Assembly: GCF_011799805.1 (NCBI RefSeq)
Contig: NZ_WXUB01000002.1
Span: 930,001 to 994,000 of the forward strand
Direction: 5' to 3'
Length of the DNA: 64,000 nt
DNA from: Maribellus sediminis
GTDB taxonomy: Bacteria; Bacteroidota; Bacteroidia; Bacteroidales; Prolixibacteraceae
A model generated the notes under the pieces. The model saw nothing but the letters and a program-made list of their open reading frames with translations, searched no databases and was not told where the DNA came from. This document shows, one piece after another, positions 19,735 to 28,079 of the stretch (position 1 is its first letter; each line of letters begins with the position of its first letter). The position numbers and the translations under genes were made by a program.

Positions 19735-19760
19735 GTTTATCCGTCAGCTGACGGATAAAC
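19735..19760. repeat. 26-bp perfect palindrome with CCGTCAGCTGACGG core
   Basis: The two halves, GTTTATCCGTCAG and CTGACGGATAAAC, are exact reverse complements. The 14-bp core belongs to the same palindrome family as the repeats at 26.5, 27.5, 27.6 and 28.05 kb. Confidence 0.85.
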
Positions 19761-19865
19761 GTTTACAAATGGTTACAAACGGATATAAAGTTGAAAATGA
19801 ACAAGTTTGTGGAAAAACACAAAACACTGCTAATAGCGATATAAACGTACTACATATACACGTAC

Positions 19866-19872
19866 ATTAGGC
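19866..19872 (+). other. possible degenerate attC right end (ATTAGGC)
   Basis: CACGTACATTAGGCG just before the first cassette-like gene resembles the GTTAGGC core with one substitution. No matching left half folds convincingly, so this may be a relic or chance. Confidence 0.3.
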
Positions 19873-19885
19873 GTAATATTGAACA

Positions 19886-20833
19886 ATGACAAAAGATGAA
19901 ATTAAAATATTAGCAAAAATTGAGAAGGAAAAGAAAAGAGTGTACAATAAATCTCGTAAATGCTTTCACCCGTTTTGTGATAAAACGGCGATTAACTCTC
20001 ATGTATTACAAAAGAATGCATTTATTTCAGCCATTGCAGATGAAGGGCATGTATATGAATATGAGCATTTACCATTTAAAGAACAGAATTTCCATTTCAA
20101 AAAATCAGGAATAAATGAAGTTTTCACGTTTAAAGGATTTTGTTCCTTTCATGATGATTTTCTATTTCGTGATATTGAAAAAAAAGAAATTAATTTTTAC
20201 GACTATAAAACACTTCTAATTTTTGCGCATAGAATATTAGCACAAGAGATTACTAAGAAGAAAAATGTTATCGAATTTCATGAGTCCCTAATTCAAAAGA
20301 ATATTGGAGACTCACAGTTCTTCAAGGAAAATATTTCTGGACAAAGACTAGGAATACAAGATGCCAATTACACACTAAAAAAGGTTCTCAACAATATCAA
20401 AAATCCAGAATTAAAAGAATTTAATTTTCACACAAGGGAGATTAAACAACTTGAAATCTGTGCATCAGGACCATATACATTTGAAACTACAAGGGAGCAA
20501 AATGAAATGCATCCTGAAATTTATGCCTTACCATTGACAGATATTTTTGTAAATATTCTTCCAACCAATGGTAATACAACCGTTTCATTTTGCTATTTAA
20601 ATTCTAATAATTTAAAGTGCAATACATACATAAAAAGTAAATTTCAATTACCGGAAGTAGAATTTATAAAGTTTTTAAGCGACATTTTAGTAGCTCAAAT
20701 GGAGAATTGGGTAATATCTACAACGCTTTATGAGAAGGTAAAAGAAGATGAAAAAATACTTTTTAATATAACTCAACAAGCATTTAATACAGACGATGAA
20801 AGATTTGAAATCGACTATAACCTTTTTAAATAA
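19886..20833 (+). CDS. zinc-motif protein of unknown function (cassette gene 1)
   Basis: A 315-residue soluble protein, Lys- and Phe-rich, strongly AT-biased in codon use. Near the N-terminus it has a probable zinc site: Cys26-x4-Cys31, His39 in NSHVLQ, and FKGFCSFHDDFLF with Cys86 and His89. This spacing resembles treble-clef/HNH-type zinc modules, and similar C-x4-C...SH...GFCxxHD proteins are scattered hypotheticals in bacterial accessory regions; a nuclease-like or defence role is possible but unproven. The C-terminal 200 residues show no known domain. It is bounded by an attC-like relic upstream and a good attC-like site 10 bp after its stop, as for a one-gene integron cassette. Confidence 0.7.
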   Translation: MTKDEIKILAKIEKEKKRVYNKSRKCFHPFCDKTAINSHVLQKNAFISAIADEGHVYEYEHLPFKEQNFHFKKSGINEVFTFKGFCSFHDDFLFRDIEKKEINFYDYKTLLIFAHRILAQEITKKKNVIEFHESLIQKNIGDSQFFKENISGQRLGIQDANYTLKKVLNNIKNPELKEFNFHTREIKQLEICASGPYTFETTREQNEMHPEIYALPLTDIFVNILPTNGNTTVSFCYLNSNNLKCNTYIKSKFQLPEVEFIKFLSDILVAQMENWVISTTLYEKVKEDEKILFNITQQAFNTDDERFEIDYNLFK

Positions 20834-20842
20834 AAATACTAC

Positions 20843-20974
20843 GCCTAACAATTTGTATATGGCAGGCGGGGGCTTTAGCGGTCTGACAAGTCAGATCTCG
20901 TTCCCACTTTACTGCGGGTCTGACAGGATTTCTCTTCGAAATCCCGCCCGACCACATACAAGTGACCGTTAGGC
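20843..20974 (+). repeat. attC-like recombination site 1
   Basis: The 132-bp imperfect palindrome starts with R'' GCCTAAC (20843-20849) and ends with R' GTTAGGC (20968-20974), fitting RYYYAAC/GTTRRRY. Inside, TTTGTATATGG...GGCGGG pairs with CCCGCC...CCACATACAAG, with extra unpaired bases on one arm as expected for strand choice by integron integrases. The stop of the preceding gene lies 10 bp upstream, the usual cassette geometry. No integrase is in the window. Confidence 0.72.
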
Positions 20975-21027
20975 TTCATGCTAAAAAGACAGAGATATTA
21001 TGAATATTTTAAAGTTAAATTGTAAAT

Positions 21028-21621
21028 ATGAAAATTGAACCAAAAGAGACAGCACTTATAATTGTAGATATGCAAAAGGGATTTTTGGATGAGGGAGCAC
21101 CAATTTTTACTCCTAATGGGAAATCCATTATTCCACAAGTAAAAAAACTCATATCCTTATGCAGAAAACACAGTATTCAAATTTTTTGGTCTAAAAGTCA
21201 TATCGACCTATTTAAACAAGGTCCATATCCCTTATTATTTCCAAAACATTTTGATAAAGAAACGGGGGAATCTGCCATGAGTAAAAAATCTATTTATTAT
21301 GATATAATTGATGAACTAAAAGAAGATATAGCTAATAATGATATAATTATTTATAAAGATAGGTATAGCGTATTTTATAATACAAATTTCGACACTAACT
21401 TAAAACAGCTTGCAATAAAAAACTTGATTGTATGCGGTGTTACAACAAATGTTTGCGTAGAATCCACGGTAAGAGATGCTTTTACATCGGATTACTTCCC
21501 ATTTATGATTTCCGATTGTACAGCAACATTTTCTGAAGAATTTCAAAAAACCGCTGAGGACATAATTAGATTTTGCTTTGGGTTTGTTTTAAAACTTAAT
21601 GAACTAGAAAATAAACTTTAA
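21028..21621 (+). CDS. isochorismatase-family cysteine hydrolase (cassette 2, gene 1)
   Basis: A 197-residue cytosolic enzyme of the PF00857 fold. The catalytic triad is complete: Asp14 in IIVDMQKGF, Lys110 in IYKDRYSVF and Cys143 in GVTTNVCVEST, with the cis-peptide-type Val-Thr-Thr preceding. Members hydrolyse amide or ureido C-N bonds (nicotinamide, biuret, ureidoacrylate, N-carbamoylsarcosine) or isochorismate. It is 54 bp after attC-like site 1 and leads a tight five-gene run with an ABC importer, so the likely role is hydrolysis of an imported nitrogen compound; that substrate is inference. Codon use is markedly AT-rich relative to the flanking chromosome. Confidence 0.85.
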   Translation: MKIEPKETALIIVDMQKGFLDEGAPIFTPNGKSIIPQVKKLISLCRKHSIQIFWSKSHIDLFKQGPYPLLFPKHFDKETGESAMSKKSIYYDIIDELKEDIANNDIIIYKDRYSVFYNTNFDTNLKQLAIKNLIVCGVTTNVCVESTVRDAFTSDYFPFMISDCTATFSEEFQKTAEDIIRFCFGFVLKLNELENKL

Positions 21622-21625
21622 AATT

Positions 21626-22645
21626 ATGAAAAAAATAAAATTATTATGTGTCATATCTCTTCTGCTTACGGTGGGATTTTATTCTTGTAAAAATTCATCT
21701 AATAAAAAAACAGAGGAGGGAAAGCTGGAAAATGTTGTTTTAGCTTTTGCTTGGAATCCCGGTCCTGAAAATGCTTTTGTCTACTATGGAATTGAACAAG
21801 GTTTCTTCGAAGATGAAGGTATCAAACTTGAAATAAGACCATTTAAAGGCTCTGGAATTGTGGCTGAAATGCTTGCTAATGAAAGTGTAGACTTCGGTTT
21901 TATAAGTAGTGACTATATTGTCACTTCACGTATAAAGGGAACGCCTATCTCTGCAATTATGACTTTATACCATGAATCACCCGTAACTATATATTCACTA
22001 AAGGAAAAAGGTATTACTTCACTTGACTCCCTTTACCATAAAAAGTTCGGTGTAATTAAACAAAGTGCGACATATCCTCAAGTTAAAGGTATGTTCGAAT
22101 TAACAAACCGTGATTATAGTAAGGTAATCGAGGTTGCGACAAGGGCTAGTTCACAAGAATTGATGCACAAAACAATAGATGCGGCCATGGACTATACAAA
22201 TTATTCTCCCTGTATTTTGCAAGCTGAAGGTATTGAAGTAAATGAAATCCTTGCAAAAGACTACGGAATTGAAATGGCAGGCATTAGTATTGCAGGCTTG
22301 ACAAAAACATTTAGAGACAAAGAAACTTTAACTCAAAGTTTTATAAATGCAATGGTCAAAAGTTTAAATGAATCTAAAAAACACTCGAAAGAGTCACTTG
22401 CTACGCTTCTTCAAAATGACATCACTCAGAATCCTGATATACTGAAAATCCAACTAAAAAGAACTGAAGAACTGTTTTATACAAAAAAAACAGATATTAA
22501 TGGTGCAGGATTCTTGGAGTTATCTGATTGGCAAAAAACTCAAAACACTTTGAAAAAAATCAACGCTATAGACCAAACTATTGACCCAAATTTCTTTTTT
22601 GAAAATTCTTTTTATATAAAAGCATGGAAAAAATATAATGACTAG
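21626..22645 (+). CDS. ABC transporter substrate-binding lipoprotein, NMT1/SsuA-like (cassette 2, gene 2)
   Basis: A 339-residue lipoprotein (lipobox FYSC, Cys21) that begins 4 bp after the hydrolase stop. The NMT1/THI5-like pattern is clear: AFAWNPGPENAFVYYGIEQGFFEDEGI, then GSGIVAEMLANESVDFGFISSD. Relatives bind sulfonates, taurine, nitrate, thiamine pyrimidine precursors or similar small molecules for import. It overlaps the permease gene by 8 bp. The ligand cannot be read from sequence, but pairing with an isochorismatase-type amidase favours a small amide, ureide or heterocycle. Confidence 0.87.
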   Translation: MKKIKLLCVISLLLTVGFYSCKNSSNKKTEEGKLENVVLAFAWNPGPENAFVYYGIEQGFFEDEGIKLEIRPFKGSGIVAEMLANESVDFGFISSDYIVTSRIKGTPISAIMTLYHESPVTIYSLKEKGITSLDSLYHKKFGVIKQSATYPQVKGMFELTNRDYSKVIEVATRASSQELMHKTIDAAMDYTNYSPCILQAEGIEVNEILAKDYGIEMAGISIAGLTKTFRDKETLTQSFINAMVKSLNESKKHSKESLATLLQNDITQNPDILKIQLKRTEELFYTKKTDINGAGFLELSDWQKTQNTLKKINAIDQTIDPNFFFENSFYIKAWKKYND

Positions 22646-23447
22646 ACTACGAGAAATATACATTACTTCTAAAGCATTTATATTTAATCTTCTGATTGGT
22701 TTAATACCGATAATACTTATATGGGTATTGATAAAAATGGTATTTAAAATTCAAGATATAACTATTCCTTGGCCAAACACAGTTATTAAAGAGATAATCC
22801 ATAACTGGAGACAATTATTGGAAGAAACAGCTCATACAATGCTATGGGCAATTATTTGCTTCATTACAAGTACGTTTTTAGGAATATTATTAGGTATTAT
22901 AACTCACAAATCAATCACTTTCTCTAAAATTGTAGTACCATCAATAGTTATCAGCCAAGTTCTCCCAAAAGCTGCAATGTTGCCCTTATTAGTTATATTG
23001 TTTGGTTACAATCCGATTTCAAAATCAATAGTTGCCACAACAATCGGTTTTTTCCCAATCTATGCTGCTACAATAAATGCTTTAAATTCTCTACCAAAAG
23101 AATGGGTATTGTTCTATCTAGTATCAGAAAATAAAAAACTAACTTTTTTCTTTAGAATAGAGTTTCCTTTTATCATAACAAACAGTTTAAGCTTCTTCAA
23201 GACTTCATTAATTTATGTGGTAATTGGAATAATAACGGCAGAAGTTATTTCTGCTGAAAAAGGAATTGGAACAATAATTAGTAATGCGTTTTACAATAAC
23301 AATGCACCAATAATGTACGCCGCTTTATTCTACTCAACATTCTTTGGCGGTGTCCTACTTTACTTATTTGAATTAGCAAGAATTTTAGTCTTACCTTTTA
23401 ATAAATGGCAAATCTCAACATTATACAAAGATGGCAGTAAGTTTTAG
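22638..23447 (+). CDS. ABC transporter permease (cassette 2, gene 3)
   Basis: A 269-residue inner-membrane permease of the BPD_transp_1 family (SsuC/TauC/ThiX type) with about six helices. The EAA-like coupling loop is visible around residues 150-190 (NALNSLPKEWVLFYLVSENKKLTFFFRIEFPF), and TAEVISAEKGIGTIISNA is typical of the C-terminal part of nitrate/sulfonate permeases. Its start overlaps the binding-protein gene by 8 bp and its end overlaps the next gene by 17 bp. Confidence 0.88.
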   Translation: MTRLREIYITSKAFIFNLLIGLIPIILIWVLIKMVFKIQDITIPWPNTVIKEIIHNWRQLLEETAHTMLWAIICFITSTFLGILLGIITHKSITFSKIVVPSIVISQVLPKAAMLPLLVILFGYNPISKSIVATTIGFFPIYAATINALNSLPKEWVLFYLVSENKKLTFFFRIEFPFIITNSLSFFKTSLIYVVIGIITAEVISAEKGIGTIISNAFYNNNAPIMYAALFYSTFFGGVLLYLFELARILVLPFNKWQISTLYKDGSKF

Positions 23448-24393
23448 ATATAAACCAATCATGACGGGTTGGACTGTAGGAGCGATTTCCTCAATTATTT
23501 TAATAATTATATCACTCTATAGACTTGGTTCAGAATTAAATAATATTGAATATATTTCTTATTTTGAAGTAGCTTGGCAAGATTCAATGCTGAAAAACAA
23601 ATTTCTTCCACAAGCGAATTTTGCCATTATTTGTATTTATATCTGCGTATTATTTATCTGTTTGTATCTTTTTAAGGTATATATTTCAGTTAAAATTATT
23701 GAGGGTAGTACTGAGCATAGAGAACGATTCTTTGAAATGGTATTTGTACCCTTTCAAATTTTTGAGTGGATTCTTAGGTTAGTTATCGTTCTCTATCTAA
23801 TATTGGGAATCTCAGGTCATGAATGGTTCGTTAGTAATATTGACATTAAAAAGCACATCGATTTTTTGTTTCTAAAAACGATGAATAATTCAGATTATAA
23901 GTCAATTAGCAATACGGAGTTATACTTACCATTAGTTAATATATTAGTTTATTCAATTAGTATATATCTCTTATTGATTCTCTATAGCTTACACTTATAT
24001 GTAAGCCTACTTTTTAGTAAAATAAATTGGTACTTAAGAAGAAAAAACAAATTGTACGATTCTCTTTTTAAGCAGGAAAGCTATTGGAATTCACCTAAGC
24101 ACGCCGGGAAAGACCACTTTATTTATTACTCTAAAAGATTTTTTCTTCCGAATTTACTTGGCATTGTCTTACTTCTATTAATTCTTGTATTATCGTGTAT
24201 TAAAATACCACCAATGGTTTTTACTACTCTTCTTGGGGTACTAACAATAACTAATGCAATAATTCTGATTCAAGCTTTCTTCAAGAAACACGGTGAGGTG
24301 AAATGTTTGTCTATTAGCTTTTTGTCGTTGTTTTTTGAAGATAAAAAATTGGAAACAAAAAAAATCCTAAAACTTTGGTATGTTATTGAATAA
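23431..24393 (+). CDS. unknown membrane protein inside the ABC operon (cassette 2, gene 4)
   Basis: A 320-residue integral membrane protein with about six predicted helices (near residues 10-28, 62-82, 108-130, 168-195, 240-260 and 264-282) and two sizeable polar loops. It lacks the EAA loop of ABC permeases and any family motif I know. It overlaps the permease gene by 17 bp and the ATPase gene by 14 bp, so translation of all three is coupled and it is very likely part of the same system, as an accessory or second membrane subunit. An alternative start at the ATG at 23461 would shorten it by ten residues. Confidence 0.75.
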   Translation: MAVSFRYKPIMTGWTVGAISSIILIIISLYRLGSELNNIEYISYFEVAWQDSMLKNKFLPQANFAIICIYICVLFICLYLFKVYISVKIIEGSTEHRERFFEMVFVPFQIFEWILRLVIVLYLILGISGHEWFVSNIDIKKHIDFLFLKTMNNSDYKSISNTELYLPLVNILVYSISIYLLLILYSLHLYVSLLFSKINWYLRRKNKLYDSLFKQESYWNSPKHAGKDHFIYYSKRFFLPNLLGIVLLLLILVLSCIKIPPMVFTTLLGVLTITNAIILIQAFFKKHGEVKCLSISFLSLFFEDKKLETKKILKLWYVIE

Positions 24394-25117
24394 TATCGCA
24401 ATAGAAGCTAAGTCGGTAAATAAAAACTATAATGGGAAACAAATTCTACACAAAATAAATTTGTCAATTGTTTCAGGCGAAATTGTTTCAATTATTGGAC
24501 CTTCGGGTTGTGGAAAATCTACTTTACTTAGATTATTATCATTAAAAGAAAAGCCTTCAGAGGGCAGTATAATAGTAAATAAAGATTTTGGGTCCTTGTT
24601 TTATTCTCCTCAAACTCCAGTTTTAATGCCTTGGTTAGATGTAATGGATAATTTGCTTTTACCATTCAGATTATTGGGTGACCATAAAGACACTAATTTA
24701 GAAAATGTAGTTTTTGAAGCATTAGAAACTGTGGGATTACGAGAGTTTTGTAATCACTATCCTCATGAGTTATCTGGCGGAATGAAAGAAAGAGTAGTAT
24801 TTGCACAATTGCTTTTACATAAATCCAGCTTGGCGTTCTTGGATGAACCTCTATCATCAATAGATGAAATTACAAAATATGAGATATTAGAAATTGCAAG
24901 AGAAATATGGACAGAATCTTCAAAAACAATTATTTGGATAACACATGATGTAAGTGAAGCACTATATATTTCAGATAGAATTGTGCTAATGTCTCAGACA
25001 CCATCAAATATTATGAAAGAGGTAAAAATTGAAAAAACAAGACCTGAAATGAATGGTTTTTTAAAAGACAGTTATTATAACGATTTAAAAGCGGAAATTT
25101 TAAAATTGTACGAATAA
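24380..25117 (+). CDS. ABC transporter ATP-binding protein (cassette 2, gene 5)
   Basis: A 245-residue ATPase of the SsuB/TauB/ThiZ class. Walker A is GPSGCGKST at 40-48, the signature is LSGGM at 131-135, Walker B ends LDEP at 154-157 with catalytic Glu156, and the switch His is His189 (ITHD). The Q-loop reads YSPQTPVLMPW, typical of nitrate/sulfonate importers. It overlaps the unknown membrane gene by 14 bp and its stop is 12 bp before attC-like site 2, as expected for the last gene of a cassette. Confidence 0.92.
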   Translation: MLLNNIAIEAKSVNKNYNGKQILHKINLSIVSGEIVSIIGPSGCGKSTLLRLLSLKEKPSEGSIIVNKDFGSLFYSPQTPVLMPWLDVMDNLLLPFRLLGDHKDTNLENVVFEALETVGLREFCNHYPHELSGGMKERVVFAQLLLHKSSLAFLDEPLSSIDEITKYEILEIAREIWTESSKTIIWITHDVSEALYISDRIVLMSQTPSNIMKEVKIEKTRPEMNGFLKDSYYNDLKAEILKLYE

Positions 25118-25128
25118 AAAGCACGAAA

Positions 25129-25259
25129 GCCTAACACTTTGTATAAGTAATGGCAGGCGATGTGGTAAATATCAAGGTTTGTAACCCGCTCAAACTGCTT
25201 AGCGGTTTGAGAGGAAACTACCACGCAATCTGCCACTACTCATCAATTTTCCGTTAACC
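25129..25259 (+). repeat. attC-like recombination site 2
   Basis: A 131-bp imperfect palindrome begins GCCTAAC (25129-25135) and ends GTTAACC (25253-25259; the third R of GTTRRRY is replaced by C). Inner arms pair well: AGTAATGGCAG with CTGCCACTACT, and ATGTGGTA with TACCACGCAAT, around an inner hairpin CTCAAACTGC...GCGGTTTGAG. Position just after the ATPase stop supports the reading; the imperfect R' lowers confidence. Confidence 0.58.
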
Positions 25260-25295
25260 AATTTTGAAATTAAATAACAATTACAAAACAATAAT

Positions 25296-26006
25296 ATGAT
25301 TATGAATGACATATGGGTTACAATTCTCTTATCGTTAATTGGAATTTTCTCTGGTGGAGTTATATCTTTCTATTTCTTTCGTTCACAACAGAAAGACGCT
25401 ATCTCTAAACTCTCAGCTAATATTGCAAAACTAAATTCACGTGAATCTTCATCAGAAAGAGTTGAAAAATATTTAATTGAACAACGCAAAAATTTGAATG
25501 AAGTTTTAAACCAAATGTCTAAAATCCAAACTTCTATTAATTTCTCAGAAAAGATTGAAAACCATGACAAATTAAATGACGTCAAAAGTACATTGGACAA
25601 CATTAAAGAAAGTTTTAAAAGTGATTTATCTGATTTAAAGAAATCCATTGACGATAGTTTTACCTCAATCATCTCAAGATTTGATAATGGAAATTTTAAT
25701 GCAACAAAAATGCTTCATTCTCAACTGGCAAAAGAATTTCAGAAAGACGTTAAATTATTTATTCCATCTTCGGAACTGGAAAGTGAAGTTCTTGCTTCAA
25801 AGTTAGTCGACAATTTCTTAAAGTTATATAAAGAAATAAATCAAATACAAAGGGAAAATTTAAATTCTGACAGAGAACATTTTCTTAAAAATGTTGATGA
25901 CAGAATTGATGATTCATTTAATAACTTCCAATCGAGATTTGAAGAAAGTTTTCAAAATTTTGAAAGTAAACTTTCCTTACCTAATTCTGGAAAACAAAAA
26001 AAATAA
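25296..26006 (+). CDS. membrane-anchored coiled-coil protein (cassette 3)
   Basis: A 236-residue protein with one N-terminal helix (residues about 7-28, VTILLSLIGIFSGG then a basic-flanked end) followed by a long helical, Lys/Glu/Ser/Asp-rich region with heptad-like spacing through most of residues 30-230. No enzymatic motif. It begins 36 bp after attC-like site 2. The fragment immediately downstream looks like the start of a trypsin-type protease gene; the two may once have formed a pair, which is inference. Function unknown. The start could also be the second ATG at 25302. Confidence 0.65.
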   Translation: MIMNDIWVTILLSLIGIFSGGVISFYFFRSQQKDAISKLSANIAKLNSRESSSERVEKYLIEQRKNLNEVLNQMSKIQTSINFSEKIENHDKLNDVKSTLDNIKESFKSDLSDLKKSIDDSFTSIISRFDNGNFNATKMLHSQLAKEFQKDVKLFIPSSELESEVLASKLVDNFLKLYKEINQIQRENLNSDREHFLKNVDDRIDDSFNNFQSRFEESFQNFESKLSLPNSGKQKK

Positions 26007-26010
26007 AATA

Positions 26011-26166
26011 AAAATATTTGATTACTATAAAGAAATACAGTCTGAAGCTGCTCAGTTAGCATATAGTTCAACATGCCAATTTATAACTATAAAAAATGAA
26101 AATCCACAACCACACAGGTGCGGTGTTTTTGTTGAAATTGATGGAGAACATTTTATGATAACTGCC
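26011..26166 (+). pseudogene. truncated N-terminal fragment of a trypsin-like peptidase-type gene
   Basis: In one frame this encodes FDYYKEIQSEAAQLAYSS, then a GVFVEIDGEHFMITAS segment. The VFVEIDGxxFMITA pattern is what precedes the catalytic His of trypsin-like and related serine peptidases (xxxYLITAxHV). The frame is broken off exactly there by a repeat that starts at about 26164, and no ATG in frame lies outside the upstream coiled-coil gene. It therefore looks like a 3'-truncated gene of cassette 3. The domain call rests on a short segment. Confidence 0.45.
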
Positions 26167-26201
26167 TCGCTAGAGCGGATTTGCAATCCGTGCCCTGGTC
26201 G
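26164..26201. repeat. palindromic dispersed repeat at truncation point
   Basis: GCCTCGCTAGAGCGGATT followed by TGCAATCCGTGCCC contains the inverted pair CGGATT/AATCCG. The left end matches GCCTCGCTGGCGC at 27525. It abuts the broken peptidase fragment. Confidence 0.6.
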
Positions 26202-26495: not shown

Positions 26496-26515
26496 ATTGA
26501 GTTTCCCTGCTCAAA

Positions 26516-26585
26516 AACTTTAAGCCGTCGGCTGAGGTACGGATTACATCCCGTCCGTCGGCTGACGGATCGGGACGCACCGGCG
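26516..26585 (+). repeat. 70-bp palindromic repeat, copy A
   Basis: It matches 27589-27658 in 69 of 70 positions. It contains AGCCGTCGGCTGA and the 14-bp palindrome CCGTCGGCTGACGG at 26555-26568, then CGGGACGCACCGGCG. Confidence 0.9.
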
Positions 26586-26778
26586 GTGAATTTAGGAAAA
26601 ATATTCAATGCCAAATAAATCAACTTAAGCTACTGAAAATTAAAACACTAAATAACAGCAATAAATAATCAATAATGAAAATGTCAGGTTTATGGCGTAA
26701 AAATGTCCTATTAAAATCATCACTGATTTTTGGATTGGGTATTTGTTTATCATAAACTTGTTCAATCTACGATGAATT

Positions 26779-27513
26779 ATGAAACAACCCTATTTAGGTA
26801 AAAAAGTTCTGGAACTTCGAAAGGCAAAGGGACTAACCCAGTCAGAATTAGTGGAGAAATGTGATATTACAATAAGAACTCTCCAACGGATTGAATCAGG
26901 CGAGGTTACTCCAAGAGCATATACAATTAAAGCAATATTTGAAGTTTTGGATTATGACTTTTATGATTCTTCAAAAACAAAAACTAGTGAATCAGTTAGA
27001 GTAATTAACCATGTGTTATACAGACTCGAACAGGTTTATAAATACATTATTGATTTATTTAACTTAAAAATTAACACAATGAAAAAATTAAAAATTTTAT
27101 CTATTCCTGTTATTTTGGTTTGTATCGTATTAATTACAGTTAGTTATAATGCAAATGCCCAGCGTAGAATTCAAAAACAATTAATAGGTACATGGCAAGT
27201 TTGTAATCCCGACAGCACCGTTGCAAATAACCTTTACAATGATAGCGACATAGCAAGGTACAAGATTATTACAAAAGAGACGTTCATGGTGAGCGATTTT
27301 GCCCCTGAGAGAAAAATTGTGCTTAACTCATTTTGGGGAACATATACCGTGGAGAAAGGCGTATATACCGAATTTATACAATATACAACACCACAATATC
27401 GCAACGTATTTGGTGTCATGAATTCTTTTAAAATAGAAATAAAAAAAGATTTTATGTTTATTAAAGGAGTCAATAATGACCTTGATGAAATATGGAAAAA
27501 AGTAAAGAATTAA
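26779..27513 (+). CDS. XRE-type helix-turn-helix protein with transmembrane segment and lipocalin-like C-domain
   Basis: A 244-residue fusion. Residues 8-60 are an XRE/Cro HTH (VLELRKAKGLTQSELVEKC, then TIRTLQRIESGEVTP). A helix at about 103-124 (LSIPVILVCIVLITVSYNANA) looks like a signal or membrane anchor preceded by an internal MKKLK, and residues 125-244 resemble a DUF4488/lipocalin-like calycin domain (LIGTWQVCNPDSTVANN). Topology would put the regulator in the cytosol and the C-domain in the periplasm, suggesting a membrane-tethered one-component sensor. Alternatively two genes were fused in frame. Flanked on both sides by dispersed palindromic repeats. Confidence 0.7.
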   Translation: MKQPYLGKKVLELRKAKGLTQSELVEKCDITIRTLQRIESGEVTPRAYTIKAIFEVLDYDFYDSSKTKTSESVRVINHVLYRLEQVYKYIIDLFNLKINTMKKLKILSIPVILVCIVLITVSYNANAQRRIQKQLIGTWQVCNPDSTVANNLYNDSDIARYKIITKETFMVSDFAPERKIVLNSFWGTYTVEKGVYTEFIQYTTPQYRNVFGVMNSFKIEIKKDFMFIKGVNNDLDEIWKKVKN

Positions 27514-27524
27514 ATTCTATTACG

Positions 27525-27565
27525 GCCTCGCTGGCGCCAATCCGTCAGCCGACGGACGGTGTGCA
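27525..27565. repeat. palindromic repeat, inverted partial copy D
   Basis: GCCTCGCTGGCGCC followed by AATCCGTCAGCCGACGGACG is the reverse complement of the core of copies A and B; the palindrome CCGTCAGCCGACGG is at 27542-27555. Confidence 0.75.
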
Positions 27566-27588
27566 ATTCGGAAGAATTGAAAAGAACA

Positions 27589-27658
27589 AACTTTCAGCCG
27601 TCGGCTGAGGTACGGATTACATCCCGTCCGTCGGCTGACGGATCGGGACGCACCGGCG
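27589..27658 (+). repeat. 70-bp palindromic repeat, copy B
   Basis: Near-identical to copy A 1.07 kb upstream, one substitution in 70 bp. The core palindrome is at 27628-27641. Confidence 0.9.
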
Positions 27659-27673
27659 ACTATCAAAACAAAA

Positions 27674-28009
27674 ATGACTATGAAAAACCAAAATTATCTG
27701 ATTTTATTGCTGATTATTTCTGTTGCAGGAATTTCGACCGGGTTTTATTTGAAATTTATTAAATCGTACACCGACGAAAAACTTCAAATTACCACAACCA
27801 ACGATGTCGGGAGAAGCCCAAATCTGGGGCAAACTATCAATTTTCTGGAAGAGCTCAACACAATAACAGGGTCTGCTGTAACCGACAAGAATGATGTTGC
27901 ACTCAAAAGACTCAAAACAATTAATTTGACTTCAATTGTAGTATTACTCATTTCAATACTCGTTGCAGTTGGAACAACTCAAAAATTATTACGAAGGAAA
28001 ATTGTTTGA
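27674..28009 (+). CDS. small two-helix membrane protein, unknown
   Basis: A 111-residue protein with hydrophobic helices at about 8-26 and 88-104 and a polar middle segment of about 60 residues containing TTTNDVGRSPNLGQTINF. No known domain recognised. It starts 16 bp after repeat copy B; the ATG two codons later (27680) is an equally good start. It is plausibly a partner of the neighbouring XRE proteins, but only position supports this. Confidence 0.55.
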   Translation: MTMKNQNYLILLLIISVAGISTGFYLKFIKSYTDEKLQITTTNDVGRSPNLGQTINFLEELNTITGSAVTDKNDVALKRLKTINLTSIVVLLISILVAVGTTQKLLRRKIV

Positions 28010-28043
28010 AAAAATAATAAGGTTGGTAATCTTGCTTATGCCG

Positions 28044-28079
28044 CCCGTCCGTCGACTGATGGATCGGGACGCACCGGCG
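28044..28079 (+). repeat. palindromic repeat, truncated copy C
   Basis: 36 bp matching the 3' half of copies A and B with two substitutions; the core is degenerate (CCGTCGACTGATGG, 28049-28062). Confidence 0.8.

Follow-up and report, generated by a model that had tools for sequence, protein, structure and literature searches.

A five-gene operon of Maribellus sediminis is probably one cassette of an integron-type system found across the Bacteroidota

The stretch of DNA analysed here, referred to as the window, is 64 kb of the 5.6-Mb genome of Maribellus sediminis (labelled G000, with contigs cited as C5, C8 and so on), and it contains a small array of gene cassettes in which five genes are enclosed by two long palindromes that resemble the attC recombination sites of integrons. 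Palindrome 1 is delimited by GCCTAAC at 20843-20849 and GTTAGGC at 20968-20974, and palindrome 2 by GCCTAAC at 25129-25135 and GTTAACC at 25253-25259. The window contains two copies of their arm pattern, CTAACNNTTTGTATA..GGC, as compared with an expectation of 0.00 from 100 shuffles, and a third genomic copy, at C5:584130, is located in another cassette array. As read from the sequence, the order in the window is an attI-like remnant (19827..19868, plus strand), a one-gene cassette (cassette 1; 19867..20968, plus strand), a five-gene cassette (cassette 2; 20969..25253, plus strand, 4,285 bp from core to core) and a shortened third cassette (25254..26170, plus strand), with attC 1 (20843..20974) and attC 2 (25129..25259) on the minus strand. 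The attI-like remnant ends with ACATATACACGTAC-ATT, a word present once in the window where 0.01 copies are expected. The only open reading frame (ORF) of cassette 1 (19886-20833, 315 amino acids) belongs to no known family, having no Pfam or NCBIfam match, and cassette 3, the right limit of which was set by eye, contains a coiled-coil-like ORF (25296-26006). A scan of the window with the covariance model described below located no attC at the right end of cassette 3, no recombinase gene was matched in the window, no recombinase remnant is recognisable 5′ of the attI-like site, and an Rfam search of the window returned no family.

A first-pass annotation, made from the letters of the window, had placed two attC-like palindromes around an AT-rich block of five closely spaced genes, encoding a hydrolase, a lipoprotein, a permease, an ATPase and a membrane protein. 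Both palindromes lie exactly where it put them, and the families and tight spacing of the five genes were borne out. The AT-richness is also real, with a GC content of 0.28-0.33 across 19.5-26.5 kb as compared with 0.35-0.52 in nearly all of the remaining window, but the 26.5-27.5 kb region is also at 0.33; low GC is a mark of the entire array and its right border, not of the operon alone. To the right of the array (26515-28079) there are three 71-nt palindrome-rich repeats containing CCGTCGGCTGACGG, two of them 99% alike and one 66%, and a related palindrome is present to its left (19739-19755).

The genes of cassette 2, all on the plus strand, encode in order an isochorismatase-family hydrolase (21028..21621, 197 amino acids; PF00857, E 2.4e-39), an NMT1/THI5-type substrate-binding lipoprotein (21626..22645, 339 amino acids; PF09084, E 5.3e-35), the permease of an ATP-binding cassette (ABC) importer (22638..23447, 269 amino acids; BPD_transp_1, PF00528, E 1e-15), a membrane protein with no family over cut-off (23431..24393, 320 amino acids) and an ABC importer ATPase (24380..25117, 245 amino acids; PF00005, E 4.8e-26). 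From 21028 to 25117, the gaps between successive ORFs are +4, -8, -17 and -14 bases. The hydrolase scores 100 bits against RutB and 64 bits against biuret amidohydrolase, both far below the cut-offs, and the NCBIfam models nearest to the ATPase, again below their cut-offs, are those of sulfonate and nitrate importers. Twelve further homologues of the lipoprotein (22-58% identity) were identified, and a contig scan with this protein turned up 22 distant loci, belonging to Paenibacillus and actinobacteria. The membrane protein, for which the AlphaFold model was too poor for use (mean predicted local distance difference test score, pLDDT, of 42), has a single other homologue (P0002, 53%, on a 4.1-kb contig) and none in 392 further genomes from the order, including one from the same genus. 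As it has no counterpart in these genomes, the cargo looks acquired and not, as the first-pass annotation had allowed for, a syntenic resident. No other instance of the identical operon between attC ends was found. A LuxR-type gene that flanks the array was not found in four relatives, a result with no bearing on an empty site. The operon was probably captured in one piece, as a complete module for the uptake and hydrolysis of a small amide-like solute; the families of its proteins offer a tentative hint that a small amide or ureide is what is taken up and hydrolysed.

Recombinase genes are present elsewhere in the genome. In this genome, no sequence exceeds the cut-off of the integron integrase model TIGR02249, which matches in two pieces at C5:577677-578480 and C8:449875-450672. 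On C5, a 399-residue recombinase (C5:577320-578519) is followed by a short palindrome and by cassettes, all on the same strand, the first cassette starting with GTTGTGTGGC and ending with GCCACACAAC. A homologue on C8, 53% identical and with one in-frame stop, has its own array, and a 36-residue recombinase remnant is located at C6:44.8 kb. The C5 locus also has a match to the S-adenosylmethionine (SAM-I/IV) riboswitch, on the opposite strand just 5′ of the recombinase gene (L012:8961-9056), a group II intron with a maturase gene (L012:12577-14403; RF01999, RF00029) that splits an attC, by eye within its L′ arm, and, at the end of the array (L013:4390-4520), what appear by eye to be the surviving 3′ end of another recombinase gene and a further attI-like palindrome.

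The C5 recombinase passes NF040815, 'site-specific tyrosine recombinase/integron integrase', and of 395 genomes sampled from the taxonomic class, 169 have close relatives of it (E <= 1e-60). It aligns with VchIntIA (PDB 2A3V) in two pieces between which chain residues 208-243 are left without a counterpart, and it lacks the insert around patch III that is specific to IntI; we refer to such recombinases as patchless. Box I and HxxR are separated by 133 residues in 11 IntI, as compared with 90-98 in 50 relatives and, in the two Xer proteins included, 95 and 98. A C-terminal [SN]P[LFIVM][DE] motif is present in 47 of 48 relatives and all 11 IntI, and in neither Xer. In a quick tree, the patchless and IntI rows group against the two long-branched Xer rows, a grouping compatible with IntI having arisen either within the patchless group or outside it. 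These spacing, motif and tree comparisons left out L043 and L062 (9 residues extracted) and one of the 12 IntI loci, L133 (too short). The ~110 N-terminal residues of the C5 recombinase have no Pfam family over cut-off, and the AlphaFold model of the recombinase was too poor for use (mean pLDDT 41).

A simple arm scanner located 91 sites in 291 kb 3′ of 42 recombinases, namely the two of this genome and those of 40 stretches fetched around relatives, as compared with 7 in the reversed sequence. The 46 sites of the right length from other genomes were dereplicated to 41, three of which were left out by hand, and the remaining 38 were aligned to give the covariance model R1, which therefore contains no site from this genome and, after a short calibration, returns rough E-values. 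In the 38-site alignment, 91.2% of the cells of the imposed stem pair, as compared with 64.3% in shuffles, and there are 220 double-change cells, as compared with 80.8, both figures being inflated because the sites were chosen by arm pairing. At one stem position, 35 of the 38 rows have a G.U pair on the bottom strand, possibly a strand mark. In the window, R1 matched both palindromes on the minus strand, attC 1 at 20976-20840 (E 7.5e-8) and attC 2 at 25261-25126 (E 8.1e-11), with only two further matches up to E 1 (E 0.045 and 0.098). Over the whole genome there were six matches at E <= 1, on four contigs, with attC 2 among them. Model attCs are also present away from known arrays at C6:797722-797856, which resembles the attCs of L062 and L085, at C8:614802-614935 and at C7:560868-561005.

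R1 returned 100 matches at E <= 0.1 over 39 loci, 38 of which are the sites from which it was built and match by construction, and one of which (L062:8719-8768) corresponds to an attI, not an attC; L076, L078, L081, L086 and L090, each with <300 bases downstream, were not scanned. All 60 matches outside the model, in loci with a recombinase, are on the strand opposite to that recombinase. Of the 34 loci with 2 kb or more of downstream sequence, 28 have at least one model attC and 19 at least two, and 10 of the 28 attC-bearing loci, including two from this genome, had supplied no site to R1.

Cassettes that move as circles must have a 5′ end that matches their own attC end. This was evaluated with the ten bases after the core, for cassettes between neighbouring sites with clear cores, with ends swapped within loci for comparison. 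In 61 cassettes, the start and the far end of the same cassette agree on average at 7.95 of 10 bases, as compared with 3.90 for 230 swapped pairs, and at least 8 bases match in 45 of the 61 own pairs and in 2 of the 230 swapped pairs. Under alternative rules, which excluded cassettes longer than 6 kb and the 7 of the 100 model matches that had no AAC or GTT close to their ends, 63 cassettes gave 7.76 as compared with 3.90. Position 8 almost never agrees (0.02), and it is there that the ends of window cassette 1, which agree at 9 of 10 bases, have their only mismatch. The ends of cassette 2, GTTAGGCTT-CATGCT and GTTAGGCTTTCGTGCT, were aligned with one gap and agree over GTTAGGCTT, the gap and C-A/G-TGCT, a pair that scores 6.0 when the cross pairs score 0.0 and -1.0. 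The fraction of 8372 unrelated pairs that score as high is 0.0011 for cassette 1 and 0.0056 for cassette 2. The end complementarity expected of circular integron cassettes is thus present.

The partner of the first attC end, as expected of an attI, was found in 18 of 28 loci and in 3 of 756 swapped combinations. It lies behind a core located 33-205 nt after the recombinase stop codon, and in many loci a palindrome and about four bases precede the core. Where the partner was found, an attI thus adjoins the recombinase gene with the cassettes inserted there, and the window has an attI-like remnant only, the same 14 letters of which are present in the attI of L063 and, in a shorter form, on C5.

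These observations are consistent with the five-gene block being one cassette of an integron-type system found across the Bacteroidota, a reading to which we assign a probability of roughly 0.88. A tyrosine recombinase would act on attC hairpins of the bottom strand and free the cassette as a circle, which would then be inserted at attI, just behind the recombinase gene and on the same strand. The window array would be an orphan piece that kept its attI and cassettes and lost the adjoining recombinase, and its cassettes were likely moved by the intact C5 recombinase or by that of a donor. The first-pass annotation had proposed an oversized integron-type cassette with no integrase nearby, in the manner of a cluster of attC sites lacking integron-integrases (CALIN), for which at least two attC sites and no nearby integrase are expected. 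The independently built model recognised both sites, and with the absence of a recombinase match the window conforms to that description.

The 4.3-kb block might instead have formed in place, by fusion of cassettes through loss of inner attCs or by attC 2 enclosing a resident operon. Most cassettes of relatives are indeed short (n=69, median 1,030 bp, one longer than 4,285 bp), with no ORF of at least 70 amino acids in 4, one in 43, two in 15, three in 4, four in 2 and five in 1, so that five-gene cassettes are rare, not unique; 91 of 98 of these cassette ORFs share the direction of the recombinase. As the five genes overlap at three junctions (by 8-17 bases) and are 4 bases apart at the fourth, there is no room for a lost inner attC. 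The two ends of cassette 2 correspond to one another but not to the ends of cassette 1, and the lack of the membrane protein in the 392 genomes of the order likewise argues against a resident operon. We regard an origin in place as quite improbable.

We consider it very improbable that the window sites come from a canonical IntI integron that has lost its integrase. Of 395 genomes taken from the phylum, 105 have canonical IntI over cut-off (one of the 106 genomes listed with IntI matches is marked as being of the same class, the number of that class in the 395 not being stated), but none is present in this genome, in which the C5 and C8 arrays have patchless recombinases and related attCs, and R1 made only two weak matches (E 0.026 and 0.083) in 12 canonical IntI loci together with their 1.5-kb flanks. 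That the palindromes are repeats or terminators near the operon by chance is hardly credible: they are palindromic and located just behind genes, and their role in recombination is deduced from sequence, but R1 is specific, with no match up to E 0.1 around four other recombinases of this genome, cassette ends match their own far ends, and the attI partner exists.

Several observations weigh against a cassette that was mobilised in the manner proposed. The arm scanner found many sites on the opposite strand too, as palindromes allow, and the pairing and double-change figures carry the selection noted above. Both window sites have R and L arms that can fold on one strand; for attC 1 the bottom strand is favoured (-25.3 as compared with -20.0 kcal/mol for the top), but for attC 2 it is not (-19.7 and -21.0 kcal/mol, respectively). 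In the whole-genome scan, in which 150 of 3495 candidates were scored, R1 missed attC 1. Compared without a gap, the ends of cassette 2 agree at only 6 of 10 bases, the same as a cross pair, and the core of the window attI-like remnant is ATT instead of the GTT of relatives. Six of the 34 loci (L066, L077, L089, L091, L095 and L097) have no model attC, 10 of the 28 have no attI partner, and in an Arenibacter relative the sole match lies 5′ of the recombinase and on the wrong strand.

Plasmid-borne relatives of the recombinase occur, among the matches listed, in Phocaeicola, Parabacteroides, Bacteroides, Persicobacter, Pontibacter, Chryseobacterium and Rufibacter. A 16-kb stretch of plasmid pPP2 of Persicobacter psychrovividus contains 17 model attCs, one of which is 82.7% identical to window attC 2 over about 150 bases, and the ends of the 16 cassettes of this plasmid match at 7.81 of 9 bases, as compared with 4.10 for 240 swapped pairs. 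Behind the recombinase there are four model attCs in Chryseobacterium, three in Rufibacter and two weaker ones in Pontibacter, and Persicobacter sp. JZB09 has one. On a Bacteroides ovatus plasmid (L145:7974-17053) the recombinase stands at the head of an immunity-gene array of the recombinase-associated acquired interbacterial defence (rAID) type; the ends of the 11 genes compared match their own far ends at 5.9 of 8 bases, as compared with 3.3 for 121 swapped pairs, and its short sites were missed by R1. In Acinetobacter baylyi plasmid pJAT2044 (L142:2967-4988), a recombinase piece is followed by an attI-like palindrome, GTTATG and then tet(X3), 3′ of which the left arm of an attC is readable; R1 has no match at this locus and the two cassette ends disagree by eye. 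Klebsiella michiganensis plasmid p2 (L147:4145-5766) similarly has a recombinase piece, an attI-like GTTAGCGG and then blaVEB-3. The movement of tet(X), with its known neighbour 'xerD', is linked to ISCR2 in passages of an earlier report (PMC7530245).

We lean towards the wider view that the Bacteroidia have their own widespread integron lineage, of which rAID is one form, in which five-gene operons travel, and to which tet(X3) and blaVEB-3 may have belonged as cassettes before they reached Gammaproteobacteria. It would have been missed by standard searches because the integrase is patchless and is co-directional with an array that starts from an attI behind its own gene. Integrons are near-absent from Bacteroidetes in the relevant parts of the IntegronFinder 2.0 report, with one complete integron, in Salinibacter, beside earlier In0 elements (PMC9024848). 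If this view is correct, relatives of the patchless recombinase are encoded in about four in ten of the genomes sampled from the class. The insert domain, described in sections of two papers as necessary for integron recombination (PMC9668308, PMC8138268), would be dispensable, and it would become testable which part of the integrase recognises folded, single-stranded attC. It would also provide a route for the growth of rAID arrays, an area of active research according to part of a recent account (PMC12247911), and possibly the place where some resistance genes were packaged. An importer operon complete within a single cassette would indicate that cassettes can hold complete functions.

The patchless systems look like integrons and yet fail the defining feature of IntI. 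They have in common with canonical IntI integrons attC hairpins on one strand, an attI beside the recombinase, the matching ends of circular cassettes, genes mostly in one direction and the C-terminal [SN]P[LFIVM][DE] motif of the recombinase. They differ from them in that the recombinase has no insert around patch III and is co-directional with the array, with attI behind its 3′ end, whereas classical integrases are divergent from the array, and in that attI is a short palindrome in many patchless loci. An integron-like subgroup in which the insertion is 'not fully conserved', although held to be essential for integron function, is mentioned in part of one paper (PMC8138268). No account of the patchless class was found in the open-licence literature by title or opening abstract, which is weak evidence of absence. 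The rAID arrays, which the first rAID paper, by Ross et al. in 2019, reportedly may liken to integrons, differ from the system described here in having immunity genes as cargo and shorter sites. They resemble it in having a related recombinase, co-oriented genes, conserved intergenic motifs and, in B. ovatus, gene ends that match their own far ends, and are described, in part of one account, as a recombinase heading an array of orphan immunity genes (PMC12247911). The window has no recombinase, and no immunity domains are recognised in its cassette genes. Like a CALIN, it has attCs with no adjoining integrase gene; unlike a CALIN, it keeps an attI-like site at its left edge, and matching recombinases are encoded elsewhere in the same genome.

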